From a virus, in IMG/VR virus record IMGVR_UViG_3300031707_002920, positions 1 through 64,000 of that record: 64,000 bases of DNA, one strand, 5' to 3'. Under the pieces are notes generated by a model. The model did no database searches and was not told the origin of the DNA. It was given only the letters and a program-made list of their open reading frames with translations. Positions 9,772-27,094 of the stretch are shown here, piece after piece. Within the stretch, counting starts at the first letter, position 1; each line of letters starts with the position of its first letter. A program made the position numbers and the translations under genes.

Positions 9772-9867
9772 GTAACATGGTTTATCTTCGCTTTTTCAAT
9801 TGATTATTGTTTTATATTCAGGAATATTTCAAGAAACTTGTTGTATATTATTTAATTGGAGCACGTA

Positions 9868-9993
9868 ATGCAAACCTTACAACTTCACACCACGCTATCA
9901 ATAGAACGTGTAAAGCACGTGGTAATGGGGTTGTCCTATTTATCATACCTTGGAAAAGAAGAAGGTTATGATATATGGACAGGCGGGGTTTGA
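9868..9993 (+). CDS. Leader peptide 1 of tRNA cluster 1 (41 aa)
   Basis: ATG at 9868 with TTGGAGC seven bases upstream; TGA at 9991-9993 falls inside segment A of the attenuator. The 41 codons include at least one cognate codon for every readable tRNA in the cluster: CAC, AAA/AAG, CTA, CTT, TTA, TTG, GAT, TGG, ATG, GGA/GGG, GGT/GGC, GAA, TAT/TAC, GTA, ATA and TCA. Ala, Asn, Cys, Phe and Pro occur in neither leader nor cluster. Gln, Thr and Arg occur in the leader without a recognised tRNA. Interpreted as a translated sensor for attenuation. Confidence 0.7.
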   Translation: MQTLQLHTTLSIERVKHVVMGLSYLSYLGKEEGYDIWTGGV

Positions 9994-10063
9994 GTGTATT
10001 AAAAAACAAAAATTAGCATACACAAAAAACCCCGCCGATCTAACCAATCGACGGGGTTTTTTT
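9982..10063 (+). promoter_or_regulatory. Attenuator 1 (A:B antiterminator versus B:C terminator)
   Basis: A = GGCGGGGTTT (9982-9991), B = AAACCCCGCC (10027-10036), C = CGGGGTTT (10052-10059) followed by a T run to 10063. A:B gives 10 perfect pairs with a nested GTGTAT/ATACAC stem; B:C gives an intrinsic terminator. A ribosome finishing the leader would cover A and favour termination, and one stalled earlier would leave A free and favour read-through into the tRNAs. Confidence 0.7.
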
Positions 10064-10081
10064 ATTTTAGGGAGGCTCGCT

Positions 10082-10243
10082 ATGGAAAAACTTGAAGTCT
10101 CAAAGTGCTTCCTTCCTAAAGATGTATTTGATGAATTCATGAACATGGCAAAAGAAGACAAACAAAAATGGGGCCGGAAACCAAAACCAATCACAAAATT
10201 GGTATGGCCAAATGACAAGGAAATTATGGTGGATGTAGCTTAA
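10082..10243 (+). CDS. Small protein, 53 aa, unknown
   Basis: ATG at 10082 with AGGGAGG upstream, just after attenuator 1. The sequence is lysine- and proline-containing (KWGRKPKPITKLVWPND). The last five codons and stop lie inside tRNA-His, so the gene and tRNA share 16 bases. No family recognised. Would be the first gene read when attenuator 1 is open. Confidence 0.6.
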   Translation: MEKLEVSKCFLPKDVFDEFMNMAKEDKQKWGRKPKPITKLVWPNDKEIMVDVA

Positions 10244-10304
10244 CTGGCTAAAGCGCTGGATCGTGACTCCAGAGACTGTGTGGGTTCGAGTCCCATCATT
10301 CACC
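10228..10304 (+). tRNA. tRNA-His(GTG)
   Basis: Acceptor GTGGATG/CATTCAC plus the diagnostic extra G at -1 (10228) opposite C73. Anticodon arm CTGGA-TCGTGAC-TCCAG gives GTG. CCA is not encoded. Confidence 0.95.
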
Positions 10305-10365
10305 CTTAGATAGTTGTATGATTCAATTGACGATGATGATTAATGATCTTTGAAATTAAGTAAAT

Positions 10366-10439
10366 GCCTGCATAACTCAGATGGTCAGAGTACGATACTT
10401 TTAATATCGGAGTCGTCGGTTCAAATCCGACTGCAGGTA
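10366..10439 (+). tRNA. tRNA-Lys(TTT)
   Basis: Acceptor GCCTGCA/TGCAGGT, anticodon arm CGATA-CTTTTAA-TATCG, T-arm GTCGG-TTCAAAT-CCGAC. CCA not encoded. Confidence 0.95.
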
Positions 10440-10512
10440 CTTACATTCTGATTGCACTTGCAAATGACTTATCTTTTTGTTTGATAGTTCATATCTATCT
10501 AAGGAGGTAGAT

Positions 10513-12261
10513 ATGAATGAATTACAAGAAGTTCAAGAAATTCGCAAGTTGTACAATGAAGGCGCATTTTTAGCGACTTTGCAAGAACGATTTGGTAAAC
10601 TTGTAGTTAAGCATGCATTGGCAGGTCATCGTCAAAGTAAAGGTGAACGTTGGCGATCACTTCGCAAGATGCATCCTGAAACTTTTAAGATGTCAGATGA
10701 AGCTAAACAACGAATTTCAATAGCAAGAAAGAAGTATTTAGACTTACACCCTGAAAAAGTACCATATAGATTAAATCATTCATCAAAGATAAGTTGGCCT
10801 GAAAAAATATTTGAAAGTGCACTTAAACGACATGATATTACAGGTTGGGTAAGAAATTACATGAATGGTCGATATGAATATGATTTTGCTTTTCCAATGT
10901 TGAAAATTGATGTTGAAATTGATGGCAATACACATTCACTAAGTAATGTAAAGAAGATTGATTGTGAGCGTGACAATTGGTCAAAGTCTCAAGGATGGAT
11001 TATATTACGATTTACAGCGAAACATGTACTAAGAGATGTAAATCAATGTATTGAATTGTTGCAAAAACAGATTAGTAATATGACATTAGATGTTAACGAT
11101 GAAATTAATGCGTCATTTTTAATGTTAAGAACAGCTAAAGATCGATATCGACACGCATTGAAAGAACGACGGCAACAACGCAGTGTTGAACGCGCTAAAA
11201 AAATTGAAGAGTTACAGCAAAATAGTATTCAGTTTAATGAAAATAAAAAAATTGCAGGTAATGAATTGTCATTAGAAACCATTTTAGATCGAGTAAATAT
11301 AGCTAAAAATAATGATCAAGAAAAACGAGGATACGTATCTGAGTTATCTGAATTGTGGAAAGTGTCTAGTACACAAGTTCGAAGATTTTTAAAGCAATAC
11401 TGTCCGGAATGCTTAAGATTACGTACTCGTGTTTTTTGTGAACAAGCTAAGTTTATTAAAACTGATGAGGTTGTTAAACAGATCATAAGTGACTATAAAA
11501 ATGGCGATTCTTTAAGTCAAATTTGTAAAAAATATATTGTATTAAAAAAAATTGTTAAGCAGTTATTACTAGATAATCATGTGGAAATAAGAGATAAAAG
11601 ATATTATGCTAAAAGAACACTAGCTGATCGACATCAAAAATATCTAATGTCATATAGTGACAAACTTACTGATATTGTCAAAGATCATGATAATGGTTGT
11701 ACAATTAGAGAACTTAGAAGAAAATACAATATCAGTAGAACGATAATTAAAAAATTGTTGAACTTGTCAGACAGTGATTATAAAAACCAATTACAACAAG
11801 AAAAATTAGATAAACTAGAAGCTAAGATCATACAAAAACAAAAGCTGCAAAATCAAATTAAGCAGCAGCAGCAGCGATTGTTAAAACAGAAAAGAAAACT
11901 AAAACGAAGATTAAGTCCTGAAAATCAACAAAAAATGCAAGATCGAATAAATTGCATACTCAAATCTGAGATAGATTATTCATCTTTTGGATGGGTAAAT
12001 AAAGTTTCAGTTCTTATTGGACTATCACCACAAAAGGTTAATGGATGGATGAAAAAATACATGTCAGATTTTTATGACAGTAATTGTTTCAAAAAAAGAG
12101 ATAGAAAAAATATATTGTTATCTAATGACGTCATTGAACAAATAGTTAGTGATTACAAAAATAGCAAATCATTACGTCAAATTTGCAAAAAATATGACGT
12201 GTCAAAGAATGTTGTTAAACTATTGTTGTTAAGTCGTCACATTGAAATAAGAAGTCGATGA
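10513..12261 (+). CDS. Vsr/EDxHD-type homing endonuclease with repeated HTH modules
   Basis: 582 residues from ATG 10513, chosen for the AAGGAGG six bases upstream. Residues about 100-190 hold a Vsr-like PD-(D/E)XK core: WPEKIFESAL, YEYDFAFPMLKIDVEIDGNTH and the following D-x-x-R-D-N-W-x-x-S-Q-G-W with ILRF. The C-terminal half contains at least three repeats of a helix-turn-helix module (I-x-x-Y-K-N-x-x-S-L-x-Q-I-C-K-K-Y) separated by a long coiled coil, as in DNA-recognition parts of free-standing phage homing enzymes. It lies between tRNA-Lys and tRNA-Leu, so it may drive spread of the tRNA cluster (inference). Confidence 0.75.
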   Translation: MNELQEVQEIRKLYNEGAFLATLQERFGKLVVKHALAGHRQSKGERWRSLRKMHPETFKMSDEAKQRISIARKKYLDLHPEKVPYRLNHSSKISWPEKIFESALKRHDITGWVRNYMNGRYEYDFAFPMLKIDVEIDGNTHSLSNVKKIDCERDNWSKSQGWIILRFTAKHVLRDVNQCIELLQKQISNMTLDVNDEINASFLMLRTAKDRYRHALKERRQQRSVERAKKIEELQQNSIQFNENKKIAGNELSLETILDRVNIAKNNDQEKRGYVSELSELWKVSSTQVRRFLKQYCPECLRLRTRVFCEQAKFIKTDEVVKQIISDYKNGDSLSQICKKYIVLKKIVKQLLLDNHVEIRDKRYYAKRTLADRHQKYLMSYSDKLTDIVKDHDNGCTIRELRRKYNISRTIIKKLLNLSDSDYKNQLQQEKLDKLEAKIIQKQKLQNQIKQQQQRLLKQKRKLKRRLSPENQQKMQDRINCILKSEIDYSSFGWVNKVSVLIGLSPQKVNGWMKKYMSDFYDSNCFKKRDRKNILLSNDVIEQIVSDYKNSKSLRQICKKYDVSKNVVKLLLLSRHIEIRSR

Positions 12262-12355
12262 GTTAAAAAAGAAGCTAGCTGATGCGCGCAAAAAACGTCA
12301 GACAATTAGAGCACGGTTGGAGCGTTCTTTGACATTGATGATGAAGCACATTTGA
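12257..12355 (+). other. Coiled-coil coding remnant
   Basis: Starting one codon before the endonuclease stop, another frame reads ELKKKLADARKKRQT and then RARLERSLTLMMKHI to TGA at 12353. It has no start codon of its own. Either a frameshifted end of the endonuclease or the tail of the gene it inserted into. Confidence 0.35.
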
Positions 12356-12367
12356 GAACGTAATTAC

Positions 12368-12451
12368 GCGAGGATGGCGGAATTGGCAGACGCACTGGGC
12401 CTAGAACCCAGCGGAAGAAATTCCTTGCGAGTTCAAGTCTCGCTTCTCGCA
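12368..12451 (+). tRNA. tRNA-Leu(TAG), copy 1
   Basis: Class II tRNA. Acceptor GCGAGGA/TTCTCGC, anticodon arm CTGGG-CCTAGAA-CCCAG, long variable arm, T-arm GCGAG-TTCAAGT-CTCGC. Confidence 0.93.
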
Positions 12452-12641
12452 GTTTATAGCAAGCAGTCATGGCATGATCTGAGACTACCATCTCTGAAAT
12501 CATAGGAGAATGGCAAGACTTGATTGTCAAACTGTTTGCAAAAAGGTCAAACTTAGAACTGGCAACGGTACCAGTTCCCAAGGCACTCGACAGTGTGCCG
12601 GCAGGACTGGTCGTAGGAATGATCAACTGTCAGAATTTCTT
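12452..12641 (+). other. Spacer with open but startless frame
   Basis: 190 bases between two Leu tRNAs. One frame is open and protein-like (LATVPVPKALDSVPAGLVVG) but has no start codon and runs into the next tRNA, so it is probably a gene remnant. No hairpin terminator seen. Confidence 0.3.
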
Positions 12642-12724
12642 GCGGATGTGGCGGAACGGCAGACGCACTACTTTGAGGTGGTAGCGAGAGCAATCTCGTG
12701 TAGGTTCAAGTCCTATCATCCGCA
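12642..12724 (+). tRNA. tRNA-Leu(GAG)
   Basis: Acceptor GCGGATG/CATCCGC, anticodon arm CTACT-TTGAGGT-GGTAG, long variable arm GAGAGCAATCTC, T-arm GTAGG-TTCAAGT-CCTAT. Confidence 0.92.
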
Positions 12725-12755
12725 TTAATTGTAAATGATTGTAGAATAGCAATAC

Positions 12756-12829
12756 GGAGTATTAGTCTAGTGGTAAAACCACGGTTTGTCGAACCGTTGT
12801 CAGCAGTTCAATTCTGCTATACTCCGCCA
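12756..12829 (+). tRNA. tRNA-Asp(GTC)
   Basis: Acceptor GGAGTAT/ATACTCC, G73 as usual for Asp, CCA encoded. Anticodon arm ACGGT-TTGTCGA-ACCGT. Confidence 0.93.
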
Positions 12830-12836
12830 GATTTTT

Positions 12837-12909
12837 GGGAGCGTCTGCTAATCTGGTAAGCTTCTAGTCTCCAAAACTAGCAATACACGTTCAAATCGTG
12901 TCGCTCCTG
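12837..12909 (+). tRNA. tRNA-Trp(CCA)
   Basis: Acceptor GGGAGCG/CGCTCCT, G73, anticodon arm CTAGT-CTCCAAA-ACTAG, T-arm ACACG-TTCAAAT-CGTGT. Confidence 0.93.
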
Positions 12910-13016
12910 TAATTTTGAAAACTAAATGAAAGTGTTTGCTTAGTGGCACTACAGATCAATTTTTAACATCTAACAAAGGAGGTTCTCATGATGTAAAACT
13001 TAACAAGGAGTGCATC

Positions 13017-13271
13017 ATGAGCAGATCGTATCGTGAACCGTATTTCACGAGCACAGGTTCAAAGTATCGGACATTTGCGAAACGCTATGCGAACAGGATC
13101 GTGCGAAAGACAGACGATGTCCCTGACGGTAAGGCGTACCGTAAATTGTATTGTTCGTGGAACATTAGCGATTTCAACGTCCGGTGGAATCCAAAGCCAA
13201 GAATCTGGTGGATCAATGGCAAGCAGCAAGTCATTGAACCGACACCGGAGTGGAAAGCAAGAATGAAATGA
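13017..13271 (+). CDS. Conserved phage protein, 84 aa, basic
   Basis: ATG at 13017 with ACAAGGAG upstream. Starts MSRSYREPYFTSTGSKYRT and contains DVPDGKAYRKLYCSWNISD, a pattern I know from small uncharacterised phage proteins that lie near tRNA genes (MSRSYRKPY..., GKAYRK..CSW). Basic, Trp-rich, possibly RNA-binding. Function unknown. Confidence 0.7.
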   Translation: MSRSYREPYFTSTGSKYRTFAKRYANRIVRKTDDVPDGKAYRKLYCSWNISDFNVRWNPKPRIWWINGKQQVIEPTPEWKARMK

Positions 13272-13332
13272 GTTTAAAGGAGGTTATAATCAATCGTATA
13301 ATTGCATAAGATAAGTTTCTATAGAAATGAAT

Positions 13333-13633
13333 GCTCGGATGGTGGAATTGGTAGACACAAGGGACTCTGTAAAAGGGTCGTATATCTTGGAAACAAGTAT
13401 ATTGTAAACTGTCAAATTCGGTGGACGGTGTAAAATCTCAACGCCGAGCCAAGCTTTAGGTAACTAAAGAAGGTGTAGAGACTAAACGGCAGTCACCTAA
13501 AAGTTAACAGTTGACTCATGGTGAAGACATAGTCCAGACTACAAACAATGCTTGTTGACGATGAAAATCGTAGTAGTAAGTAAAATCCCTCGGGAGCGAT
13601 CCTATACCGGTTCAAGTCCGGTTCCGAGCACCA
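13333..13633 (+). tRNA. tRNA-Leu(TAA) interrupted by a group I intron
   Basis: Exon 1 13333-13366 ends GGGACT; exon 2 13581-13633 begins TAAAATCCCT. Joining gives anticodon arm AGGGA-CTTAAAA-TCCCT (anticodon TAA), acceptor GCTCGGA/TCCGAGC, a class II variable arm, A73 and encoded CCA. Confidence 0.88.
13367..13580 (+). ncRNA. Group I intron in the anticodon loop of tRNA-Leu
   Basis: 214 nt. Exon GACT pairs with intron GGTC, giving the canonical U-G pair at the 5' splice site (P1). The core contains GGTGTAGAGACTAAACGG (P3/P7 region, as in tRNA-Leu introns of cyanobacteria) and GAAGACATAGTCC (3' strand of P7). The last intron base is G, as group I introns require. No ORF inside, so mobility would need help in trans. 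Confidence 0.85.
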
Positions 13634-13661
13634 TTATGAAAAGAAAATCTTTAATACTATT

Positions 13662-13735
13662 GCCGGATTGGTGTAATTGGTAAACACGCTTATTTCAAAA
13701 GTAAGTCTTTGAGAGTTCAAAACTCTCATCCGGTA
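13662..13735 (+). tRNA. tRNA with anticodon CAA on a class I body
   Basis: Acceptor GCCGGAT/ATCCGGT, D-arm GTGT/ACAC, anticodon arm CTTAT-TTCAAAA-GTAAG, five-base variable loop, T-arm GAGAG-TTCAAAA-CTCTC. CAA is a Leu anticodon, but bacterial tRNA-Leu has a long variable arm and this one has not. Leu, or a recoded identity, is open. Confidence 0.75.
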
Positions 13736-13744
13736 TATGAAAAT

Positions 13745-13826
13745 TGCGGCGTACAGTAGCGGTCTAACTGGGAAGCCTCATAAGCTTCTGGCGCAAGCCT
13801 CATGAGTTCAAATCTCATCGCCGCTA
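13745..13826 (+). tRNA. tRNA with anticodon CAT, T1-T72 mismatch and long variable arm
   Basis: Acceptor TGCGGCG/CGCCGCT with a 1-72 mismatch, D-arm CAGT/ACTG, anticodon arm GAAGC-CTCATAA-GCTTC, variable arm with stem GGC-GCAA-GCC, T-arm ATGAG-TTCAAAT-CTCAT. A 1-72 mismatch is an initiator hallmark, yet the three G-C pairs of initiator anticodon stems are missing and the variable arm is class II. Assignment as Met is by anticodon only. Confidence 0.7.
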
Positions 13827-13832
13827 ATTTAT

Positions 13833-13904
13833 GTGAGTGTAGCCTAGCGGTCAGGCACCTTCCTTCCAAGTAGGTATACGCGGGTTCGATCCCCGTCACT
13901 CACT
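13833..13904 (+). tRNA. tRNA-Gly(TCC)
   Basis: Acceptor GTGAGTG/CACTCAC, anticodon arm CCTTC-CTTCCAA-GTAGG with one T-T mismatch, T-arm GCGGG-TTCGATC-CCCGT. Confidence 0.88.
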
Positions 13905-13907
13905 TAT

Positions 13908-13984
13908 AGTGGCATCATCTAACGGCTTTAGGATGCGCGGTTTTCAACCACGCAATCGGGTTTCGACTACCCGTGCCACTACCA
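13908..13984 (+). tRNA. tRNA-Glu(TTC)
   Basis: Acceptor AGTGGCA/TGCCACT, anticodon loop TTTTCAA between CGCGG and CCACG (one mismatch), T-arm TCGGG-TTTCGAC-TACCCG variant, encoded CCA. Confidence 0.85.
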
Positions 13985-13993
13985 AATAGAATT

Positions 13994-14077
13994 GGGTCGG
14001 TCGCATAGCGGCAAGTGCACCTGATTGTAGCTCAGGCGTCTTACGACTATTCGTTGGTTCGAGTCCAGCCCGGCCCA
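13994..14077 (+). tRNA. tRNA-Tyr(GTA)
   Basis: Class II. Acceptor GGGTCGG/CCGGCCC, anticodon arm CCTGA-TTGTAGC-TCAGG, long variable arm, T-arm GTTGG-TTCGAGT-CCAGC. Confidence 0.93.
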
Positions 14078-14179
14078 TTTACAATGTGACTCTCTTAGAG
14101 GGTCTTACACATACCCTAAAAAATTGAGAGAGTTATATTTTCACTTCACAAAATTTGAAGTTTATTTGATAAGTGCTAT

Positions 14180-14249
14180 GGTGAGTTCGGATAATGGTAG
14201 ATCGAGCGCCCGGAAGGGTATGGGAGTTCAAGTTTCTCACTCACCGCCA
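14180..14249 (+). tRNA. Degenerate tRNA, anticodon arm not foldable
   Basis: Acceptor GGTGAGT/ACTCACC, G73, encoded CCA and a T-arm (GGGAG-TTCAAGT-TTCTC) are present, but only 67 bases precede CCA and the anticodon region folds as CCC-GGAA-GGG with a four-base loop. Probably a decayed tRNA; identity not assigned. Confidence 0.5.
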
Positions 14250-14256
14250 AAATTAT

Positions 14257-14331
14257 GCGGCAGTCGCTAAGCGGTTTAGCACATCATTGCCTATGATGTC
14301 TACGCCAGTTCGATCCTGGTCTGCCGCACCA
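14257..14331 (+). tRNA. tRNA-Gly(GCC)
   Basis: Acceptor GCGGCAG/CTGCCGC, anticodon arm CATCA-TTGCCTA-TGATG, T-arm GCCAG-TTCGATC-CTGGT, encoded CCA. Confidence 0.93.
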
Positions 14332-14349
14332 TTTTTTCAAAGGAGGTAT

Positions 14350-14514
14350 ATGAATTATTTACTAACTATTAGAGTGCCTTTTACTGATATTGATGATGTC
14401 ATTGCCAGACAAAAAGCATTAGAAATTTTAGAAAAAGTAAATATTTCTAATGAAAAAGTGGTCAAATTACAAAGACTGCAAGAAAATGCAGAACCTGTCA
14501 AAGTTAATTTGTAG
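14350..14514 (+). CDS. Small protein, 54 aa, unknown
   Basis: ATG at 14350 with AAAGGAGG upstream. Begins MNYLLTIRVPFTDIDDVIAR and ends in a short helix. Its stop TAG shares two bases with tRNA-Val, so gene and tRNA are packed as tightly as possible. Resembles small phage proteins with a ferredoxin-like beta-alpha-beta start, but I cannot name it. Confidence 0.65.
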   Translation: MNYLLTIRVPFTDIDDVIARQKALEILEKVNISNEKVVKLQRLQENAEPVKVNL

Positions 14515-14588
14515 GCACTTATTTCAGCGGTAAGAATAGCTGGCTTACGTCCAGCAGGTCGACAGTTCGAGTCTGTCAGTGCCTACCA
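14513..14588 (+). tRNA. tRNA-Val(TAC)
   Basis: Acceptor AGGCACT/AGTGCCT, anticodon arm GCTGG-CTTACGT-CCAGC, T-arm GACAG-TTCGAGT-CTGTC, encoded CCA. Confidence 0.93.
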
Positions 14589-14661
14589 TTTTTCAAAGTA
14601 AAAAGCAATAAGATAAATCTATTGATAAAACATGTATAGTATATGTCTATAACAAACTTTC

Positions 14662-14743
14662 AGGAGAGTATCGGTACACTCTTATAAGGTGTATACCCGT
14701 AATTGGTTCATTGAAAATGAGGGTTCAAGTCCCTCCTCTCCTA
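14662..14743 (+). tRNA. tRNA-Ile(TAT), D-arm missing
   Basis: Acceptor AGGAGAG/CTCTCCT, anticodon arm ACACT-CTTATAA-GGTGT, T-arm GAGGG-TTCAAGT-CCCTC. Only TCGGT lies where the D-arm should be, while about 26 bases separate anticodon and T stems. The alternative loop TTGAAAA (Phe) would overlap the T stem, so Ile is preferred. Confidence 0.6.
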
Positions 14744-14788
14744 TAATTAAATTAAGATCATGGCAATAATAATTGATTATCACTTTAT

Positions 14789-15143
14789 GATCCTGTGAGC
14801 GAGAAAACCCACGGTTGAAACCGTGGGATGAAAGCGAGCCGTAATATATATTCTAAATGACAGGCTCAGTTCTGAACTCTTCAAGGCTGAAAGTGCCGGT
14901 TGAGTTCCATAAAAAAATGAACTGAATCACCGTCAAAAGCTCCTTGCTTCAGGGCCAGATGTAAAAAGCACCACGGTATCATCCTGGTTTTCTGGAAAAG
15001 CACTCTGATTCGGAGATTCATAAAATTTCGTTTCATACCCAGACTCGGGCTGGAGTCTGTTGAGCGACCAGTGCCCCGCCGCAAGGCGAAAGCACCGGTG
15101 AGGGCTCATAGAAGCCCACGACTTTAGTCGTGGGAGCAGTCAC
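14789..15143 (+). mobile_element. Non-autonomous IS605-type mini-element (family 1), copy A
   Basis: 355 bp without an ORF. Left end GATCCTGTGAGCGAGAAAAC with hairpin CCCACGGTTgaaACCGTGGG, right end identical in design to 1-168, ending GCAGTCAC. Preceded by TTTAT, the same left flank as copy B, taken as the target/TAM. It keeps the omega-RNA scaffold, so with a TnpB in trans it could express a guide starting at 15144. Confidence 0.8.
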
Positions 15144-15259
15144 TATATTTACAATACCATTCAGTCTTCGATTTGTCTTTGATAATTGAATTTAGAATAT
15201 GTGAAAGAGTTAGATGATGATGCTATTCTTGAAAGATTAAATATTGATGATGAACTAAA
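15144..15259 (+). other. Gene remnant downstream of mini-element
   Basis: From about 15188 one frame reads NLEYVKELDDDAILERLNID and continues DELKEE into tRNA-Ser, without a good start. Looks like the end of a gene truncated by the tRNA or by the IS insertion. Confidence 0.3.
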
Positions 15260-15345
15260 GGAAGAGTCGCTCAATGGTAGAGCATCTGATTTGAGATCAG
15301 ACGCCTCAAAAGGGTGTGCGGGTTCAAGTCCTGCCTCTTCCGCCA
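15260..15345 (+). tRNA. tRNA-Ser(TGA)
   Basis: Class II. Acceptor GGAAGAG/CTCTTCC, G73, encoded CCA, anticodon arm TCTGA-TTTGAGA-TCAGA, long variable arm. Confidence 0.93.
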
Positions 15346-15350
15346 ATCTT

Positions 15351-15377
15351 GGGCCTGTGGCTTAGTTGGTTAATGAA
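15351..15377 (+). pseudogene. 5' tRNA fragment
   Basis: GGGCCTGTGGCTTAGTTGGT is a perfect tRNA 5' half (acceptor strand, T8, D-arm) that stops before the anticodon arm. No matching 3' acceptor strand nearby. A recombination scar upstream of the next CDS. Confidence 0.6.
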
Positions 15378-15404
15378 TGGTAATGTTTAAACAAAGGACT
15401 AGAT

Positions 15405-15614
15405 ATGAGTTTTGGATTGAAGAAGTCTTTTGGCAGGTTCGTTAAAAAACTACCGGATTTTATTGTAATAAAATATGATGACTATTTTAACGTTATTTAT
15501 AAAGATGGGCGTCAAAGCAATGAATATGAAACAGACAGATATATTTTTGGCAAAAGTGATGAAGGATTTTATATGATAAATAAGAAAGCAATAGTTTATG
15601 GAATAAGAGTATAA
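15405..15614 (+). CDS. Small protein, 69 aa, unknown
   Basis: ATG at 15405 with AAGGACTAG upstream. Basic N-terminus (FGLKKSFGRFVKKLPDF) then beta-rich, aromatic sequence (YDDYFNVIYKDGRQSNEYET). Not recognised. It begins just after one tRNA fragment and ends just before another. Confidence 0.55.
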   Translation: MSFGLKKSFGRFVKKLPDFIVIKYDDYFNVIYKDGRQSNEYETDRYIFGKSDEGFYMINKKAIVYGIRV

Positions 15615-15616
15615 GT

Positions 15617-15663
15617 GGAGAGTTAGCATAACTGGTAATGCAGTCGATTTGAGGTCGACCGCT
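15617..15663 (+). pseudogene. 5' two thirds of a tRNA-Ser(TGA)-like gene
   Basis: Acceptor 5' strand GGAGAGT, D-arm GCAT/ATGC and anticodon arm GTCGA-TTTGAGG-TCGAC are intact, then the sequence runs straight into the start of the next CDS. Variable arm, T-arm and 3' acceptor strand are missing. Confidence 0.6.
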
Positions 15664-15664
15664 C

Positions 15665-15883
15665 ATGTTTGATAAGACATTTGAACTTTTTGATCGAACC
15701 ATGCAAATGCTTGACAGAGAAATGAAATGTCTGTTTATGCGCCCTACGAAGTCGAATACGAGGGTGAGGGTTAAGATCAAGGCTGGATCTAAAGTTTATG
15801 TGAATGGTGTGATGGTTGAATTAGTTAATGATGCTATTGTTTTAACATCTGAACTTGACAGATTGATGAATACGAAAAAATAA
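15665..15883 (+). CDS. Small protein, 72 aa, unknown
   Basis: ATG at 15665 directly abuts the broken tRNA, so its native promoter and 5' end may have come with the tRNA. N-terminal amphipathic helix (FDKTFELFDRTMQML) and a beta part (AGSKVYVNGVMVELVNDAIV) like small phage scaffold-type or DNA-binding peptides. Not recognised. Confidence 0.5.
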   Translation: MFDKTFELFDRTMQMLDREMKCLFMRPTKSNTRVRVKIKAGSKVYVNGVMVELVNDAIVLTSELDRLMNTKK

Positions 15884-15910
15884 ATGAATTTAAAAAAGGT
15901 GGATTGAAAA

Positions 15911-16252
15911 ATGTTAGATGAGTTTTTGAAAACTGATAATACAGTAAAAGTCGCATTATATAAAATTGGTCGAGTGCTAGGATTTTTTTCGGAAAATTCT
16001 TTTAAGCAATACGAATATCTGTTAAATGACGAGTCAGATAACGATGTTCGAAAGTTGTTATCGTCTATTTTAGCCAGTTTGACTCACTGTGGTGCAATTG
16101 TATCGACTGACGAAAATCGAGTGAAGTGGAATGAAAATTTTAAAATCGATTCATATTTAGAGATGATGCAGCAGAAAAAAGCTTCACGAGCTAGACAAGC
16201 ACAAGACAGAGCAGCTATTAAGAATATATTGCGAAAATTTGCAACTGAATGA
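15911..16252 (+). CDS. Helical protein, 113 aa, unknown
   Basis: ATG at 15911 preceded by AAAAGGTGG. Mostly alpha-helical with a basic C-terminal helix (QQKKASRARQAQDR). Same strand and close to its neighbours. No family recognised. Confidence 0.65.
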   Translation: MLDEFLKTDNTVKVALYKIGRVLGFFSENSFKQYEYLLNDESDNDVRKLLSSILASLTHCGAIVSTDENRVKWNENFKIDSYLEMMQQKKASRARQAQDRAAIKNILRKFATE

Positions 16253-16279
16253 CGAGTAATAAACAATCCTGACGGATTA

Positions 16280-16516
16280 GTGCTCGAAATTAAATGCGTC
16301 GATTTAGATTCATTGTTTATTGTGACGATTGTAAAGAAAAATAATAAATGGGAGCACGTATTTAAGTGTGGACATGAAATCGTGTGGAGATGCAATAGTA
16401 GAATAGGTGATCAGACAGTTTTTGAGGCTGATTCACAGCTAATTAAGAACGACAGTACACAAAATTTGTGTTATTTATACGATGATGGCACAATTAGTAT
16501 AGATCGAGATTCTTAA
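16280..16516 (+). CDS. Small protein, 78 aa, GTG start, unknown
   Basis: Frame opens after TGA at 16250; the first plausible start is GTG at 16280. Beta-rich with two His/Cys clusters (EHVFKCGHEIVWRCNS), perhaps a metal site. Its 3' end approaches tRNA-Leu. Not recognised. Confidence 0.5.
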   Translation: MLEIKCVDLDSLFIVTIVKKNNKWEHVFKCGHEIVWRCNSRIGDQTVFEADSQLIKNDSTQNLCYLYDDGTISIDRDS

Positions 16517-16572
16517 GTGGAACAGAAATAGCATAAGAATGATGTCTCTTACTCAAAACGCTAACAGAAATT

Positions 16573-16656
16573 GCGGGAATGGTGGAATTGGTAAACACGT
16601 CGGTTTTAGAAGTCGATGGGAGAAATCCTTTGCAGGTTCAAGTCCTGTTTCCCGCA
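16573..16656 (+). tRNA. tRNA-Leu(TAG), copy 2
   Basis: Class II. Acceptor GCGGGAA/TTCCCGC, anticodon arm TCGGT-TTTAGAA-GTCGA (two wobble pairs), T-arm GCAGG-TTCAAGT-CCTGT. Last tRNA of cluster 1. Confidence 0.82.
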
Positions 16657-16669
16657 CTAGAGATTAAAT

Positions 16670-17194
16670 ATGCTATGTCCAATATGTAATTCTGATACTT
16701 TGGTCATTAATTCGAGGGTAGTAAATGCTTGTTGTAATGTCAGGCGTCGAAGAAAATGTATAAAGTGCGATTATCGATTCAATACCATAGAACGAGTAAG
16801 AATAGATATGAATGAAAAGTTAAAACAAGTTATCGTGATGCGATCAGACCTTAATATGAGAAAAGGCAAAATGATTGTACAGGGCGCGCATGCATCAATG
16901 AAAATATTTTTTGATAGAGTCGAATCAATTAATAAGAAGATGTGTTTGAATATTACGCAGGCAATGATGGAGTGGATGACTGGTATTTTTACTAAAATTT
17001 GTGTGAAGGTCGACTCGGAACGAGAGTTACTTGAGATTAGAGAGAAAGCTATTTCTTTAGGATTACCAGTAGCTTTGATTGAAGACAACGGGTTGACTGA
17101 ATTTAAAGGAGTAGTAACAAAAACTTGTCTTGCAATAGGGCCTGATGATTCGGAAAAAATTGATCAAGTTACAGGTCATTTACAATTATTGTAA
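16670..17194 (+). CDS. NrdR-like zinc ribbon fused to peptidyl-tRNA hydrolase Pth2
   Basis: 174 residues. 1-44 is an NrdR-type zinc ribbon (LCPICNSDTLVINSR, RRRRKCIKCDYRFNTIER) without the ATP-cone that normally follows in NrdR. 52-174 is a complete Pth2 domain (KQVIVMRSDLNMRKGKM, QGAHASM, then GLPVALIEDNGLTEFKG, LAIGPDDSEKIDQVTGHL). Pth2, typical of archaea and eukaryotes, releases tRNA from stalled peptidyl-tRNA. It sits at the end of tRNA cluster 1, matching a role in recycling tRNA. The fusion is unusual; the ribbon may bind nucleic acid. Confidence 0.85.
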   Translation: MLCPICNSDTLVINSRVVNACCNVRRRRKCIKCDYRFNTIERVRIDMNEKLKQVIVMRSDLNMRKGKMIVQGAHASMKIFFDRVESINKKMCLNITQAMMEWMTGIFTKICVKVDSERELLEIREKAISLGLPVALIEDNGLTEFKGVVTKTCLAIGPDDSEKIDQVTGHLQLL

Positions 17195-17218
17195 AGCTTT
17201 AAAAGAAATGGCAATCGT

Positions 17219-18031: not shown

Positions 18032-18056
18032 GGATAGTAGTGAATGGAAATTAACA

Positions 18057-21117: not shown

Positions 21118-21186
21118 TGATAATTTTATATTATTGTGAGCTTAATCTACGATATTTAACGTGATTATTAATTTAAAAGGATTATC

Positions 21187-21282
21187 ATGCATTTATTTAT
21201 ACGCACATCTACATGGCTTTATAATACTGCCAGTGATATGCGTTCAAATTTCTGTGCAACAATTAGAATGGAAATAACATAA
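21187..21282 (+). CDS. Leader peptide 2 of tRNA cluster 2 (31 aa)
   Basis: ATG at 21187 with AAAAGGA upstream; TAA at 21280-21282 lies four bases before segment A. Six of 31 residues are Thr, four Ile, three Arg, three Met, two Ala. The cluster 2 tRNAs are Met, Thr(TGT), Ile(GAT), Ala(TGC) and Arg(TCT), and their codons ATG, ACA (four times), ATT, GCA and AGA are all present. A further ten amino acids occur without a local tRNA, so the match is looser than for leaders 1 and 3. Confidence 0.6.
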   Translation: MHLFIRTSTWLYNTASDMRSNFCATIRMEIT

Positions 21283-21285
21283 TTG

Positions 21286-21344
21286 GCGAGGCTTAAAATA
21301 ATATTAAAAAAGCCTCGCTGATCAAAAGTCAACGAGGCTTTTTT
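21286..21344 (+). promoter_or_regulatory. Attenuator 2
   Basis: A = GCGAGGCTT (21286-21294), B = AAGCCTCGC (21310-21318), C = CGAGGCTT (21333-21340) with a T run. A:B has 9 perfect pairs; B:C is an intrinsic terminator just 13 bases before tRNA-Met. Same geometry as attenuators 1 and 3. Confidence 0.7.
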
Positions 21345-21356
21345 AATGCCGAAATT

Positions 21357-21429
21357 GTTGACGTAGCTAAATTGGTATAGCGTTGCTCTCATGAAGCAAA
21401 GTGTAGTGGTTCGAGTCCACTCGTCAACA
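21357..21429 (+). tRNA. tRNA-Met(CAT)
   Basis: Acceptor GTTGACG/CGTCAAC, D-arm GCTA/TAGC, anticodon arm TTGCT-CTCATGA-AGCAA. Elongator Met or lysidine-modified Ile cannot be separated from sequence alone. Confidence 0.9.
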
Positions 21430-21458
21430 TTAGTAATTTAAGTAGATTGGATAAATTT

Positions 21459-22052
21459 ATGATGGAGTCATTAGTATTAAATAGTTTTGCTATTCCAGTA
21501 TCTGTTATACCTATCAAGAGAGCTATCACGCTCGTCGCGACCAAAAAAGCAATTGCTCTTGCCAATTATGAAAATACTATAATACGGTCGTCGGGAATTG
21601 TCATACACGATTCGATACTCATGAGGTCTAAAAATTCTTTGATATCTATGGCTGTACCGTCTGTAATTCAGTGCGTACATTCCAACTACATGCCAAAAAA
21701 GTATGTCAATGTATTGCCGTTTAGCAGGCAGAATGTCTATATCAGAGACGGTGGATGTTGCATGTATTGCGGTAGAAAAGTTTCTATTTCTAATTTTACG
21801 TTCGATCACGTTATTCCACGGTGTGATGGTGGAAAAACTACTTGGGACAATATTGTTATCAGTTGTATGAAGTGCAATGCTCAAAAGGGTCGCAGGTCAG
21901 TTAATAATTACAAGAGAGCATTGATTCGCAAACCATTTGCTCCGAGATTAGATAAGGCAGCTCCGGCTCATTTGGTTAGTAAAATAGCTGCTGAAATTCC
22001 ACATAAGACGTGGATCGATTACATTTATTGGAACGTAATATTAGAGCCGTAG
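21459..22052 (+). CDS. HNH endonuclease
   Basis: 197 residues from ATG 21459. C-terminal HNH module: VYIRDGGCCMYCGRKVS (zinc Cys pair), FDHVIPRCDGGKTTWDNIV, CMKCNAQKG (second Cys pair). Such HNH proteins include free-standing homing enzymes of phages. Located between tRNA-Met and tRNA-Thr. Confidence 0.85.
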   Translation: MMESLVLNSFAIPVSVIPIKRAITLVATKKAIALANYENTIIRSSGIVIHDSILMRSKNSLISMAVPSVIQCVHSNYMPKKYVNVLPFSRQNVYIRDGGCCMYCGRKVSISNFTFDHVIPRCDGGKTTWDNIVISCMKCNAQKGRRSVNNYKRALIRKPFAPRLDKAAPAHLVSKIAAEIPHKTWIDYIYWNVILEP

Positions 22053-22058
22053 GTCAAT

Positions 22059-22130
22059 GCTGGTATAGCTCAATCGTAGAGCAATGGTATTGTAAACCAT
22101 AGGTTGTGGGTTCAAGTCCTGCTACCAGCT
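22059..22130 (+). tRNA. tRNA-Thr(TGT)
   Basis: Acceptor GCTGGTA/TACCAGC, anticodon arm ATGGT-ATTGTAA-ACCAT, T-arm GTGGG-TTCAAGT-CCTGC. Confidence 0.93.
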
Positions 22131-22150
22131 TTTTAGCAATTGGGGCTTAT

Positions 22151-22510
22151 ATGAATACTACGATAGTAAATCGACAAGTCAAGCCTATTGATAGTATTAT
22201 ATTTTCGATTAAACCTGTAGCTGAAAGACGAAAGCTTGTATTTAGAAAAAAGAAGAAGATTACAGTAGTTGAAGACTATATACAGACTATTGAGAAACGA
22301 ATTGAATTAGTAAATAAAGATTTTTTGCAAAAGAAACTACTATATAAGTTTGCATTATGCGAATTTGACGGTCAATTTCTACTATATATGGTAATTAATA
22401 ATGATAAAGGTGACGTCGTCATGTGCTATACACGCGAAGTCACTCGCGATAATTTTAAAAAAATTTTAGACGAAATGTTTCTAGGCACGGGCTTTATGTT
22501 CGATAGTTAG
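22151..22510 (+). CDS. Protein of 119 aa, unknown
   Basis: ATG 22151 behind TTGGGGCTTAT. Very basic middle (VAERRKLVFRKKKKITVV) and an alpha/beta C-terminus. Stop lies just before tRNA-Ile. Not recognised. Confidence 0.6.
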   Translation: MNTTIVNRQVKPIDSIIFSIKPVAERRKLVFRKKKKITVVEDYIQTIEKRIELVNKDFLQKKLLYKFALCEFDGQFLLYMVINNDKGDVVMCYTREVTRDNFKKILDEMFLGTGFMFDS

Positions 22511-22519
22511 ACAATAAAT

Positions 22520-22596
22520 AGGCGTATCATCCAAACGGTTCAGGATACATGTCTGATAAGCATGAAATAGTAGTTCAATTCTACTTACGCCTACCA
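22520..22596 (+). tRNA. tRNA-Ile(GAT)
   Basis: Acceptor AGGCGTA/TACGCCT, D-arm ATCC/GGAT, anticodon arm CATGT-CTGATAA-GCATG, T-arm AGTAG-TTCAATT-CTACT, encoded CCA. Confidence 0.93.
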
Positions 22597-22616
22597 TTTT
22601 TTACAAAGGATCAACA

Positions 22617-22826
22617 ATGGTTCGCATCTTGTGCGCTGTATGCTTATCGATGTCGTTTTTAAATTGCGCAGCTCATAAGTTGATCATTGATCCGGCAGAG
22701 TATAGCGTAGTAAAATTGTATATGATACCACATGCTATTATTATTAGAGTCGATACTATTAAAGTCGACAATTCAAAAATGTTGCAAATTAAATATTTTG
22801 GTAAAGAAAATAAATCAAGAGACTGA
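22617..22826 (+). CDS. Possible small lipoprotein, 69 aa
   Basis: ATG 22617 with AAAGGATC upstream. N-terminus MVRILCAVCLSMSFLNCAAH is a short signal peptide with a possible lipobox (F-L-N-C). The mature part is beta-rich. Exported function, unknown. Confidence 0.55.
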   Translation: MVRILCAVCLSMSFLNCAAHKLIIDPAEYSVVKLYMIPHAIIIRVDTIKVDNSKMLQIKYFGKENKSRD

Positions 22827-22830
22827 TCGA

Positions 22831-22903
22831 GGGGCTATAGCTCAATTGGGAGAGCCGGTGCTTTGCAGGCACAAGGTTGGAGGTTCAAATCCTCTTAGCT
22901 CCA
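22831..22903 (+). tRNA. tRNA-Ala(TGC)
   Basis: Acceptor GGGGCTA/TAGCTCC, anticodon loop TTTGCAG in a GGTGC/GCACA stem (one mismatch), T-arm TGGAG-GTTCAAA-type loop, A73. Confidence 0.88.
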
Positions 22904-23189
22904 TAAATATAAACTACAAATTCAATTTCTGTTATCATTTATATACAACTATGTCTTATAGAAAAGCAATTAAATCAGTTTATAGGGCAAACTGTCTCTG
23001 CTAATGAAGTTGATGACATTAAAAATGTCGTTAGTAATTTGTTACGATCGGGTGTTGGTTTAAGTCGATAGCAGAAAATTCTATTCATACAAATATATAA
23101 CAACAATGCGTGTTCAGTGCCACTAGAATTTATTGAAAGCGATGCAGGTTGTTACAACTGCTTAAGGACTAACTTTTTCAGGAGTGTTT
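22904..23189 (+). other. Spacer with frameshifted remnant
   Basis: No intact gene. A frame containing LIEKQLNQFIGQTVSANEVD and NVVSNLLRSGVGLSR ends at TAG near 23071 but has no start; a short ATG ORF (MSYRKAIKSVYRANC) overlaps in another frame. Suggests a decayed small gene. Confidence 0.3.
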
Positions 23190-23399
23190 ATGGCTACGAA
23201 GCACGTCTCTCGCTTACCTCTTTTAGGAAAGCCGCTGCCTGAGTTTGATTATCGAACCTCGCAATCTTCCATAATTGTTGTGGATGATCCTGGAGATAAA
23301 GATATGGTAATTGTTAAAAAAGGTGAAAAACCTGTTGGCAGATGTGCCTGCTTTAATAATGGATTCACCCGTGACGGATTACCACTTCCTTTAGAATAA
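23190..23399 (+). CDS. Protein of 69 aa, unknown
   Basis: ATG 23190 with CAGGAG upstream (TTCAGGAGTGTTTATG). Contains FDYRTSQSSIIVVDDPGDKD and ends in a Gly/Pro-rich tail with two Cys. Not recognised. Confidence 0.6.
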   Translation: MATKHVSRLPLLGKPLPEFDYRTSQSSIIVVDDPGDKDMVIVKKGEKPVGRCACFNNGFTRDGLPLPLE

Positions 23400-23468
23400 A
23401 TGAATAGAGCCTAACACAAAGCAGATGTAAAGAAATTATGATAGTTAAACGTTACAACAAAACGAAAG

Positions 23469-23672
23469 GTGAATCATGCGAGCAAAGGTCATGCAGATTT
23501 AAATGTCGATGCAATTGAATTCGATAAAAATCCTGAAGATACAACGGAACTTTTACTTGCGAATTTATACACATTACTCTTAATGATGAATATTTTTGTA
23601 AAATATGACGATGTAAAATGTAAAGAAGAATATAAATTAGAAAATGGAACAACAATTAAATTTATTCGATAA
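23469..23672 (+). CDS. Protein of 67 aa, GTG start, unknown
   Basis: GTG 23469 behind ACGAAAG. Mixed alpha/beta, ending EYKLENGTTIKFIR. No family recognised. Confidence 0.45.
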   Translation: MNHASKGHADLNVDAIEFDKNPEDTTELLLANLYTLLLMMNIFVKYDDVKCKEEYKLENGTTIKFIR

Positions 23673-23716
23673 TCTTTGAGGTTTATAAAAGGCACTTTCA
23701 CTCTCAACAAACCCTT

Positions 23717-23791
23717 GCCCCAGTAGCTCAGCTTGGATAGAGCCACAGTTTTCTAAACTGTACGTCATCGGTTCGAGTCCGATCTGGGGTT
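23717..23791 (+). tRNA. tRNA-Arg(TCT)
   Basis: Acceptor GCCCCAG/CTGGGGT, anticodon arm ACAGT-TTTCTAA-ACTGT, T-arm ATCGG-TTCGAGT-CCGAT. Last tRNA of cluster 2. Confidence 0.92.
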
Positions 23792-25716: not shown

Positions 25717-25890
25717 CTAAGAAATTAGGGTTAAAGTAATCTTAAGATTAACTTATAATTAATGGTTTTACTACGATATTTATAATGATTATTTATAATA
25801 GAAGTGGTGCTTAGAAGAAAATTTCAGAATTTACTTAATCTCAATTTTCTTCGAATTTCATCCTTCTTTTAAACTAAAAAAGGTTTTAAA
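25717..25890 (+). promoter_or_regulatory. Upstream region of leader 3
   Basis: AT-rich, no gene. CTACGATATTTATAATGATTATT at about 25771 resembles CTACGATATTTAACGTGATT at about 21149 upstream of leader 2, so the two leaders probably share a promoter or regulator site. TATAAT-like boxes occur at 25779 and 25796. Confidence 0.4.
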
Positions 25891-25956
25891 ATGACGATTC
25901 GTAGGCAGCCGCAACAGCAACGTCGCCCTCAACCAGGACGGTGTATGCTCAAGTGA
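25891..25956 (+). CDS. Leader peptide 3 of tRNA cluster 3 (21 aa)
   Basis: ATG 25891 with AAAAAAGG upstream. Of 21 residues five are Arg, five Gln and three Pro. Codons used include AGG, CGG, CGT, CGC, CAG, CAA, CCG, CCT and CCA, that is, a cognate codon for each of the eight tRNAs downstream (Arg CCT, CCG, ACG; Gln CTG, TTG; Pro CGG, GGG, TGG). TGA at 25954-25956 lies inside segment A. Confidence 0.8.
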   Translation: MTIRRQPQQQRRPQPGRCMLK

Positions 25957-26016
25957 AGCTGTCGAATTAACGTTATATTTATTAAAGGCTTCACTTGAAA
26001 AAGTGGAGCCTTTTTT
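25950..26016 (+). promoter_or_regulatory. Attenuator 3
   Basis: A = CAAGTGAAGC (25950-25959), B = GCTTCACTTG (25988-25997), C = AAGTGGAGCC (26001-26010), then six Ts. A:B is 10 perfect pairs; B:C with a GAAA loop is a strong intrinsic terminator. Ends 16 bases before tRNA-Pro. Confidence 0.8.
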
Positions 26017-26032: not shown

Positions 26033-26107
26033 CGGGACGTAATGCAGTGGGAGCATGCAACATTTGGGATGTTGTAGTCGTCGGTTCGAATCCGACCGTC
26101 CCGACCA
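26033..26107 (+). tRNA. tRNA-Pro(TGG)
   Basis: Acceptor CGGGACG/CGTCCCG, anticodon arm CAACA-TTTGGGA-TGTTG, T-arm GTCGG-TTCGAAT-CCGAC, encoded CCA. Confidence 0.95.
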
Positions 26108-26114
26108 ATTTTAT

Positions 26115-26189
26115 TGGAGTATAGCTCAATGATAGAGCACTGAGCTCTGGACTCAGATGTTTGAGGTTTAAATCCTCATACCCCAGCCA
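26115..26189 (+). tRNA. tRNA-Gln(CTG)
   Basis: Acceptor TGGAGTA/TACCCCA (one mismatch, weak U1-A72 as in Gln), G73, encoded CCA, anticodon arm CTGAG-CTCTGGA-CTCAG. Confidence 0.92.
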
Positions 26190-26194
26190 AGTTT

Positions 26195-26267
26195 CGGGAT
26201 GTATTTCAAATGGTAGAATTTCTGATCCGGGATCAGAAGGTTAGCAGTTCAAGTCTGCTCATCCCGA
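26195..26267 (+). tRNA. tRNA-Pro(CGG)
   Basis: Acceptor CGGGATG/CATCCCG, anticodon arm TCTGA-TCCGGGA-TCAGA, T-arm AGCAG-TTCAAGT-CTGCT. Confidence 0.93.
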
Positions 26268-26291
26268 TTACATAAGTGTCTGATTGTAAAA

Positions 26292-26366
26292 CGGAGCGTG
26301 GCCCAGTCGGTTCAGGGCTCCTGAACGGGGTTCAGGAGATCGGCAGTTCGAATCTGCCCGCTCCGA
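26292..26366 (+). tRNA. tRNA-Pro(GGG)
   Basis: Acceptor CGGAGCG/CGCTCCG, D-arm GCCC/GGGC, anticodon arm CCTGA-ACGGGGT-TCAGG. Base 33 is C instead of the near-universal T. Confidence 0.87.
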
Positions 26367-26371
26367 TTAAT

Positions 26372-26446
26372 GTTCCTATAGCTCAACTGGATTAGAGCAG
26401 TAGTTTCCGATACTACAGGTTAACCGTTCAAATCGGTTTAGGAACA
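26372..26446 (+). tRNA. tRNA-Arg(CCG)
   Basis: Acceptor GTTCCTA/TAGGAAC, anticodon arm GTAGT-TTCCGAT-ACTAC, T-arm AACCG-TTCAAAT-CGGTT. Confidence 0.93.
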
Positions 26447-26453
26447 ATAAATT

Positions 26454-26527
26454 AGGGGTGTAGCTCAGTTGGCTAGAGCAGCAGATTTTGATTCTGCGAG
26501 TCGTGGGTTCGAGTCCCTCCACCCCCA
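26454..26527 (+). tRNA. tRNA-Gln(TTG)
   Basis: Acceptor AGGGGTG/CACCCCC with 1-72 unpaired, anticodon arm GCAGA-TTTTGAT-TCTGC, T-arm GTGGG-TTCGAGT-CCCTC. Confidence 0.9.
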
Positions 26528-26534
26528 TTAACAT

Positions 26535-26608
26535 ATCTCTATAGCTCAATGGATTAGAGCAGCGATTTCCTACATCGCAGGTTGAGAGTTCAAATCTCTC
26601 TAGAGATA
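26535..26608 (+). tRNA. tRNA-Arg(CCT)
   Basis: Acceptor ATCTCTA/TAGAGAT, anticodon arm GCGAT-TTCCTAC-ATCGC, T-arm GAGAG-TTCAAAT-CTCTC. Confidence 0.93.
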
Positions 26609-26621
26609 CTATTTCAATATG

Positions 26622-26692
26622 CTTGTTTCTTAATTCAACGGTAGAATGCAAGCTTTGAAACTTGACACAGAGGTTCGACACCTTTTGCTATT
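26622..26692 (+). pseudogene. Degenerate tRNA
   Basis: D-arm ATTC/GAAT, anticodon stem CAAG/CTTG with an eight-base loop CTTTGAAA, and T-arm AGAGG-TTCGACA-CCTTT are visible, but the acceptor strands do not pair. Anticodon TTG or TGA depending on loop register. A decayed member of cluster 3. Confidence 0.5.
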
Positions 26693-26712
26693 GCTATTTC
26701 TAGTAAAATGAT

Positions 26713-27036
26713 ATGAACAATGTAATTCAGAAAAACTTGTACAAAACTTGTACAAGATGTAAATTAACAAAACCTATTGAAGAGTTTTATAAACAGGTTC
26801 AAGGAATATATGGTTGCAAGAGTGAGTGTAAAGAGTGTTCAAAAAAATTAACAAGCGACGATTATCAAATACATAAAAAAGAAAGAAATGCTACAAAAAG
26901 AAAATGGTGCATAAGAAATAGGAAAAGATATAATGAAGTCCATTTAAAATGGGTACACGATAATAGAGAGCATTACAACGCTTATCATAGAGAGTATAAA
27001 CAAAGACAAGCTCGTTTATTTGTGCCTGTTTCCTAA
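26713..27036 (+). CDS. Zinc-binding phage protein inside tRNA cluster 3
   Basis: 107 residues with CTRCKLTKPIEEFYK and CKSECKECSKK, two Cys pairs followed by basic repeats (NRKRYNEVHLKWV, REHYNAYHREYK). This layout is common in HNH-family and gene-49-like phage proteins, but no HNH catalytic triad is visible. The last five codons and stop lie inside tRNA-Arg(ACG). Confidence 0.7.
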   Translation: MNNVIQKNLYKTCTRCKLTKPIEEFYKQVQGIYGCKSECKECSKKLTSDDYQIHKKERNATKRKWCIRNRKRYNEVHLKWVHDNREHYNAYHREYKQRQARLFVPVS

Positions 27037-27094
27037 CAGGATAGGGGATCAGATTACGAATCTGATTGTGAGAGTTCGAATCTCTCCAGGCACA
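27022..27094 (+). tRNA. tRNA-Arg(ACG)
   Basis: Acceptor GTGCCTG/CAGGCAC, D-arm TCCT/AGGGG region, anticodon arm TCAGA-TTACGAA-TCTGA, T-arm GAGAG-TTCGAAT-CTCTC. Needs A34-to-I editing to read CGC/CGA. Overlaps the 3' end of the preceding CDS. Confidence 0.9.

Follow-up and report, generated by a model that had tools for sequence, protein, structure and literature searches.

Why some phages carry so many tRNA genes has long been asked. The viral DNA analysed here (the window: 64,000 nucleotides, positions 1 to 64,000 of IMG/VR record IMGVR_UViG_3300031707_002920) belongs to one of a group of large phages. Three tRNA clusters in the window are each preceded by a short leader open reading frame (ORF) and by a set of alternatively pairing segments, A, B and C (Table 1). 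From sequence analysis, we propose, at a probability of roughly 0.85, that the tRNA clusters are operons, each controlled by ribosome-mediated transcription attenuation, in which the leader would serve as a checklist of the operon's tRNAs. The phage would then probably make extra tRNAs when a ribosome stalls for want of one.

Table 1. Positions of leaders, switch segments, tRNA clusters and adjoining features in the window
Feature	Position	Strand	Remark
Promoter-like motif CTTCG-N10-TGATTA, ahead of leader 1	9786..9807	+	
Leader 1 ORF, 41 codons, catalogue of cluster 1	9868..9993	+	ATG...TGA; 16/16 anticodons covered
Segment A, switch 1, GGCGGGGTTT	9982..9991	+	overlaps final leader 1 codons and TGA
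Segments B and C, putative intrinsic terminator 1, then T tract	10025..10061	+	
tRNA cluster 1 (His, Lys, Leu, Asp, Trp, Met, Gly, Glu, Tyr, Val, Ile, Ser)	10229..16657	+	
tRNA-Leu(UAA) with group I intron in anticodon loop	about 13333..13633	+	tRNA missed by ARAGORN
tRNA-Ile(UAU), not called by ARAGORN	14662..14743	+	Rfam 36.1 bits vs gathering score 29
PTH2 peptidyl-tRNA hydrolase fused to NrdR-like zinc ribbon	16670..17194	+	Pfam; directly 3' of cluster 1
Promoter-like motif, ahead of leader 2	21147..21168	+	
Leader 2 ORF, 31 codons, MHLFIRTSTWLYNTASDMRSNFCATIRMEIT	21187..21282	+	5/5 anticodons covered
Segment A, switch 2, ATTGGCGAGGCTT	21282..21294	+	
Segments B and C, putative intrinsic terminator 2	21307..21343	+	A:B -18.0, B:C -19.1 kcal/mol
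tRNA cluster 2 (Met, Thr, Ile, Ala, Arg-UCU)	21356..23791	+	ARAGORN
Promoter-like motif, ahead of leader 3	25771..25792	+	
Leader 3 ORF, 21 codons, MTIRRQPQQQRRPQPGRCMLK	25891..25956	+	8/8 anticodons covered
Segment A, switch 3, TCAAGTGAAGCT	25949..25960	+	includes leader 3 TGA
Segments B and C, putative intrinsic terminator 3	25984..26013	+	A:B -17.0, B:C -18.7 kcal/mol
tRNA cluster 3 (Pro x3, Gln x2, Arg x3)	26033..27095	+	ARAGORN

Leader 1 and the tRNAs of cluster 1

Leader 1 (MQTLQLHTTLSIERVKHVVMGLSYLSYLGKEEGYDIWTGGV) has a GGAG sequence 5' of its ATG, and a ribosome-binding site is present at all three leader ORFs of the window. In cluster 1, ARAGORN called 15 tRNAs, i.e., His, Lys, Leu(UAG) twice, Leu(GAG), Leu(CAA), Asp, Trp, Met, Gly(UCC), Gly(GCC), Glu, Tyr, Val and Ser(UGA). 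To these are added tRNA-Ile(UAU), found by Rfam with its anticodon assigned by eye, and an intron-split tRNA-Leu(UAA), whose group I intron matches Rfam RF00028 (63 bits, 13357-13557) and whose two halves and anticodon were likewise assigned by eye. The preliminary description, made from the sequence alone, held that leader 1 contains a codon for every readable tRNA of the cluster, and indeed each distinct anticodon of cluster 1 has its codon in the leader (16/16, or 14/14 when the ARAGORN calls alone are counted). Ala, Asn, Cys, Phe and Pro are absent from both the leader and the cluster, as that description also stated, while the five Leu anticodons it counted are four distinct anticodons carried by five genes. 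The leader further contains Gln, Thr and Arg codons, one TCC and one GTT, none of which is read by cluster 1 tRNAs with the decoding rules applied.

A permutation test set beforehand, which asked how often random ORF stretches reach the same coverage, found 16/16 to be rare (p about 0.001-0.01); coverage common among random ORFs, the outcome that would have spoken against the claim, did not appear. Random 40-codon windows drawn from long ORFs of the same phage cover on average 10.9 of the cluster 1 anticodons, and full coverage has p=0.0011-0.0023 against these windows, p=0.0009 against independently drawn (iid) codon usage and p=0.0017 when the nucleotides of the leader itself are shuffled. 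If U34 is allowed to read A, G and U, the most permissive wobble rule, p rises up to about 0.01, and a strict rule gives 0.0001-0.0007. Cluster 1 also reads 31 of the 40 post-start codons of leader 1, compared with a random mean of 21.7 (p=0.004). With the amino acids held fixed, the synonymous codon choice of leader 1 shows no significant bias on its own (p=0.19). Taken by itself, the coverage of leader 1 is good, not overwhelming, evidence.

Other features of cluster 1 were recorded alongside. A CAU-anticodon tRNA at 13744-13827 has a long variable arm (identified by eye), which is unusual for tRNA-Met. Encoded among the tRNA genes at 10477-12261 is a large protein that combines helix-turn-helix repeats with a DUF559 endonuclease-like domain. 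The PTH2-zinc ribbon fusion 3' of the cluster, kept in at least G002 and G003 of the related phages described below, is linked to cluster 1 by association only.

Codon-anticodon matching across seventeen leaders

In the same phage, leader 2 coverage is weak taken singly (p=0.07, range 0.04-0.14). Leader 3 is rich in Arg, Gln and Pro, and its complete coverage compares with a mean of 1.9 and a maximum of 6 among 20,000 random windows. When the three leaders are pooled, 29/29 anticodons are covered, against a null of 15.7 ± 2.3 and a maximum of 24.

Relatives were found in IMG/VR via a marker protein encoded at 17219-18031, on contigs (113-416 kb) that share the arrangement: G001 (loci L004, L030-L032), G002 (L005, L033-L035), G003 (L006, L036-L038) and G004 (L007, L039-L041, L133). 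A scan of IMG/VR with the terminator pattern returned G001-G003 again and nothing else. Against the phage collection, the leader 1 peptide gave no match, and the leader 1 DNA region gave similarity at the His-tRNA only. Cellular homologues of the marker protein, in a scan of genome contigs, belong mostly to Planctomycetota.

Leader types 1 and 2 are present in 4/4 relatives, and type 3 also in G001 and G004. A fourth type, type 0 (MTSLTCNSNYFTSSFSNYGKTDQWGFA, MRITTSTFNNNTYSCCFNSNSKLVEFV, MRITTNNTFSNSNCTCNFCFSNSRNELVEFA and MKNYTKTCNNNMFSSFCFNSKNELVEFA), occurs in all four relatives and is absent from this phage's 86-kb record; it precedes tRNA clusters of Phe, Asn, Ser(GCU) and Cys, joined in two phages by Thr(CGU). 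Asn, Cys and Phe, missing from leader and cluster 1, are supplied by type 0, Ala by cluster 2 and Pro by cluster 3. The joint set comprises 17 leaders from five related phages (this phage and G001-G004). At 15 of the 17, an automatic detector reported both the switch and an ORF with a ribosome-binding site; the type 1 ORFs of G001 and G002, which have weak ribosome-binding sites, were picked by eye at detected switches.

Over this set, 143 of 151 own-cluster anticodons (95%) are covered, a count that is not fully independent because the five phages are kin. Random ORF windows cover 82.3 ± 5.3 of the same 151 anticodons (maximum 99), and synonymous recoding of the 17 leaders covers 120.4 ± 3.7 (maximum 131). 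The match is seen to be specific to each leader's own cluster, as the leaders cover only 148/360 (41%) of the anticodons of other clusters in the same phage. Under strict Watson-Crick reading, 142/151 are covered, compared with 115.0 ± 3.8 (maximum 126) for synonymous recoding; taken phage by phage, the strict comparison with synonymous recoding yields p=0.0005 for this phage (G000), G001 and G004, 0.005 for G003 and 0.06 for G002. The excess over synonymous recoding argues that the leaders list individual isoacceptors, not amino acids alone. Chance coverage was ruled out by four nulls.

That the leaders strictly follow the gain and loss of tRNAs from phage to phage was also considered and rejected as not clean: among 74 anticodons missing from a cluster and present in a relative's cluster, some of which may belong to tRNAs that exist undetected, 52 are still covered by the leader. 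Individual cases do fit, i.e., ACG in leader 0 is confined to the two phages whose cluster 0 includes tRNA-Thr(CGU), and leader 2 of G004 has three Val codons where Val(UAC) sits in cluster 2. Reassignment of a stop codon was likewise rejected, as reading TAG as a sense codon gave no clear gain in ORF coverage.

These data bear on whether codon content matters at all. A general sensor of translation slowdown, in which any pause in the leader would antiterminate and the codons would be incidental, could account for the long type 1 and type 2 leaders of broad composition; it is nevertheless highly improbable, given that leader content is own-cluster-specific and that, in several phages, type 3 leaders are rich in Pro, Gln and Arg and type 0 leaders in Phe, Asn, Ser and Cys.

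Several unusual tRNAs were observed in the relatives. CUA-anticodon tRNAs, possible amber suppressors, lie in cluster 0 of G001-G003 (L030:13441-13512, L033:7990-8063 and L037:16583-16657); leader 0 ends in TAG in these three phages and in TAA in G004, where the search of cluster 0 gave no CUA tRNA. Cluster 2 of G002 contains two adjacent tRNAs with 8-base anticodon loops (cttg, cttt; L035:5036-5185, equal to L005:18218-18367), and another 8-base-loop tRNA (cttg) lies in G001 at L032:2895. These may be frameshift-type tRNAs.

The A/B/C switch and the proposed attenuation

In line with the preliminary description, which placed the TGA of leader 1 in segment A, the stop codon (9991-9993) overlaps the 3' end of A. 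Within B, bases 10027-10036 are complementary to A, and the two pairings of switch 1 have predicted energies of -24.1 (A:B) and -18.4 kcal/mol (B:C). The alternative pairings, i.e., a putative antiterminator A:B and a U-tract intrinsic terminator B:C that are mutually exclusive, are seen in 17/17 units, with both forms stable (A:B -16 to -29, B:C -17.6 to -23 kcal/mol). Intrinsic terminator 3 was also found by a second, separate analysis. Measured from the first base of the stop codon, the start of A ranges from 18 nt upstream to 4 nt downstream throughout the 17 units, a placement that fits a terminating ribosome covering A.

Comparison between phages shows that A, B and C covary: at least 10 core A:B columns are changed on both sides, and several of these also change on the B:C side. 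Each of the four leader types has one recurrent B:C mismatch (mostly C-A) at a B base that is paired in A:B, so that the antiterminator would be favoured once A is free. Plain folding of whole leaders yields the terminator form in some and the antiterminator form in others, a mixed outcome that is expected if the switch is balanced. In type 0, the start of the ORF pairs with A as a protector hairpin (combined p 2.6e-4), and default termination in the absence of translation would follow from this pairing. A protector or pause hairpin from leader start to A is weak in type 3 and unsupported in types 1 and 2; in leader 1 a candidate (CAAACY at the start, pairing with GGGTTTG in A) is appealing on visual inspection and was rejected as not significant.

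The detector found exactly three sites in the window, all ahead of tRNA clusters. The same architecture was matched 0 times in 40 shuffles of the window, 0 times in 66 other IMG/VR phage loci, many of them with dense tRNA arrays, and not at all in 24 kb of Bacillus phage G. It could be argued that the ORFs and hairpins are unrelated, the former encoding small phage proteins and the latter being ordinary terminators that insulate the tRNA genes, and leader 1 peptides are in fact recognisably alike between phages and protein-like, with MQT at the start and GYDK near the end. However, the stop always lies at A, the three segments covary together, the combination occurs solely ahead of tRNA clusters, as the shuffles and other loci indicate, and type 3 leaders are alike in composition and not in sequence. 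We consider this explanation the least probable of all, close to negligible.

In the attenuation we propose, a ribosome that finds all listed tRNAs plentiful and charged would reach the stop codon and cover A; B would then pair with C as an intrinsic terminator, leaving the tRNA genes untranscribed. Scarcity of any listed tRNA would stall the ribosome upstream and leave A free to pair with B, and with A:B formed no terminator would arise and the operon would be transcribed until the missing tRNA is restored. The induced operon would in this way relieve the scarcity that triggered it. As nearly all tRNAs of an operon have codons upstream, running short of a single one should be enough to induce the whole operon. 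Translation of the leaders is suggested by their ribosome-binding sites, matched codons and stop positions, and stalling may, by the same pairing logic, cause antitermination.

The breadth of sensing envisaged at the outset, any of about 16 tRNAs by leader 1, is supported, much better than by leader 1 alone, by the cluster-matched leaders (17, in five phages) and the A/B/C covariation, with a reservation for Trp and Asp. In leader 1, TGG (codon 37) is separated from A by 3 nt and GAT (codon 35) by 9 nt, near enough that a stall there may itself cover A, and shortage of these two tRNAs may go unsensed. Such codons, near enough to A for a stalled ribosome to cover it, are few: those at least 12 nt upstream of A alone still cover 134 of the 151 anticodons of the 17 leaders.

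The natural signal would be loss of tRNA in infection, whether through host tRNA nucleases, host shut-off or rising demand. The same switch might instead read amino-acid starvation, i.e., charging level and not loss of tRNA molecules, with identical logic, as an uncharged tRNA stalls the ribosome like an absent one. Yet the operons encode tRNAs, which bring no relief for amino-acid starvation, and the leaders list isoacceptors beyond what their amino acids would need, so we regard starvation as an unlikely signal, if the strongest of the competing explanations. To return to tRNA loss, it is conceivable, at somewhat less than even odds, that the near-whole tRNA complement is divided among four operons, the attenuator of each reading all its own tRNAs, and that this arrangement provides isoacceptor-level sensing of the loss of single tRNAs and on-demand restocking, e.g., after a host tRNA-cleaving defence.

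A promoter-like motif is common to the leaders of all five phages, and CTACG-N10-TGATTA lies 5' of most of them. The motif, a putative promoter, occurs only five times in the window, three of these ahead of the three leaders. Exclusivity to leaders was ruled out, as the motif occurs elsewhere too. Two identical copies with the same flank, ~1 kb apart, lie away from the tRNA clusters at 40425 and 41428.

Relation to known regulatory systems and other features of the window

T-box riboswitches likewise respond to tRNA charging and act on transcription through antitermination, and they bind uncharged tRNA directly, with no need for leader translation. A T-box was looked for and rejected: cmscan gave no Rfam match at the gathering score, and none at E up to 1 over 9500-27300.

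The leader-peptide attenuators of bacterial amino-acid operons (trp, his and ilvGMEDA) likewise have a short translated leader with regulatory codons, a stop near the switch, and mutually exclusive antiterminator and intrinsic terminator. The leader-peptide model is described in PMC1183508. In those attenuators the leader names one or a few amino acids and the genes controlled are biosynthetic, whereas the phage leaders list up to 22 distinct anticodons and the genes they would control are tRNAs. Leader-peptide attenuation of tRNA genes or phage tRNAs was not found in the searchable literature, which is thin on subscription papers. As far as that literature extends, the mechanism would be classical and the phage tRNA target and multi-tRNA catalogue new, an absence of precedent that is weak evidence.

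Phage-encoded tRNAs replace host tRNAs depleted by tRNA-cleaving defences, according to the accessible portions of PMC10264068, PMC11555353 and PMC12409363, and such replacement would give a phage reason to sense tRNA loss. Those portions do not describe control of the tRNA genes by shortage; in the present phages, in contrast, supply would be turned on by the shortage itself. If this is true, phage regulation reveals what is being watched, namely shortage of exactly the tRNAs that the phage supplies, and both the codon-supplement and the anti-defence hypotheses become testable by asking which tRNA loss switches on which operon. The reach of leader-peptide attenuation would also widen, to tRNA supply beyond amino-acid synthesis and to lists of up to 22 anticodons beyond one or a few amino acids, and the leaders could serve as laboratory multi-tRNA sensors.

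Elsewhere in the window, a NusG-like phage protein and a weak sigma-70 region 2 match (36082-36594 and 35292-36038, respectively) are candidates, by their domain matches, for phage-specific transcription control. A phage-encoded tmRNA (30796-31210; 125 bits) has a 28-residue tag, and tmRNAs are likewise present in the related loci L010, L018, L025 and L029. Related repeat elements with inverted-repeat ends (CCCACGGTT...AACCGTGGG, then GCCCACGACTTTAGTCGTGGG) lie at 14790-15145, 25120-25470 and about 50-170; they resemble IS200/IS605 element ends, and two of them are inside or just before tRNA clusters.
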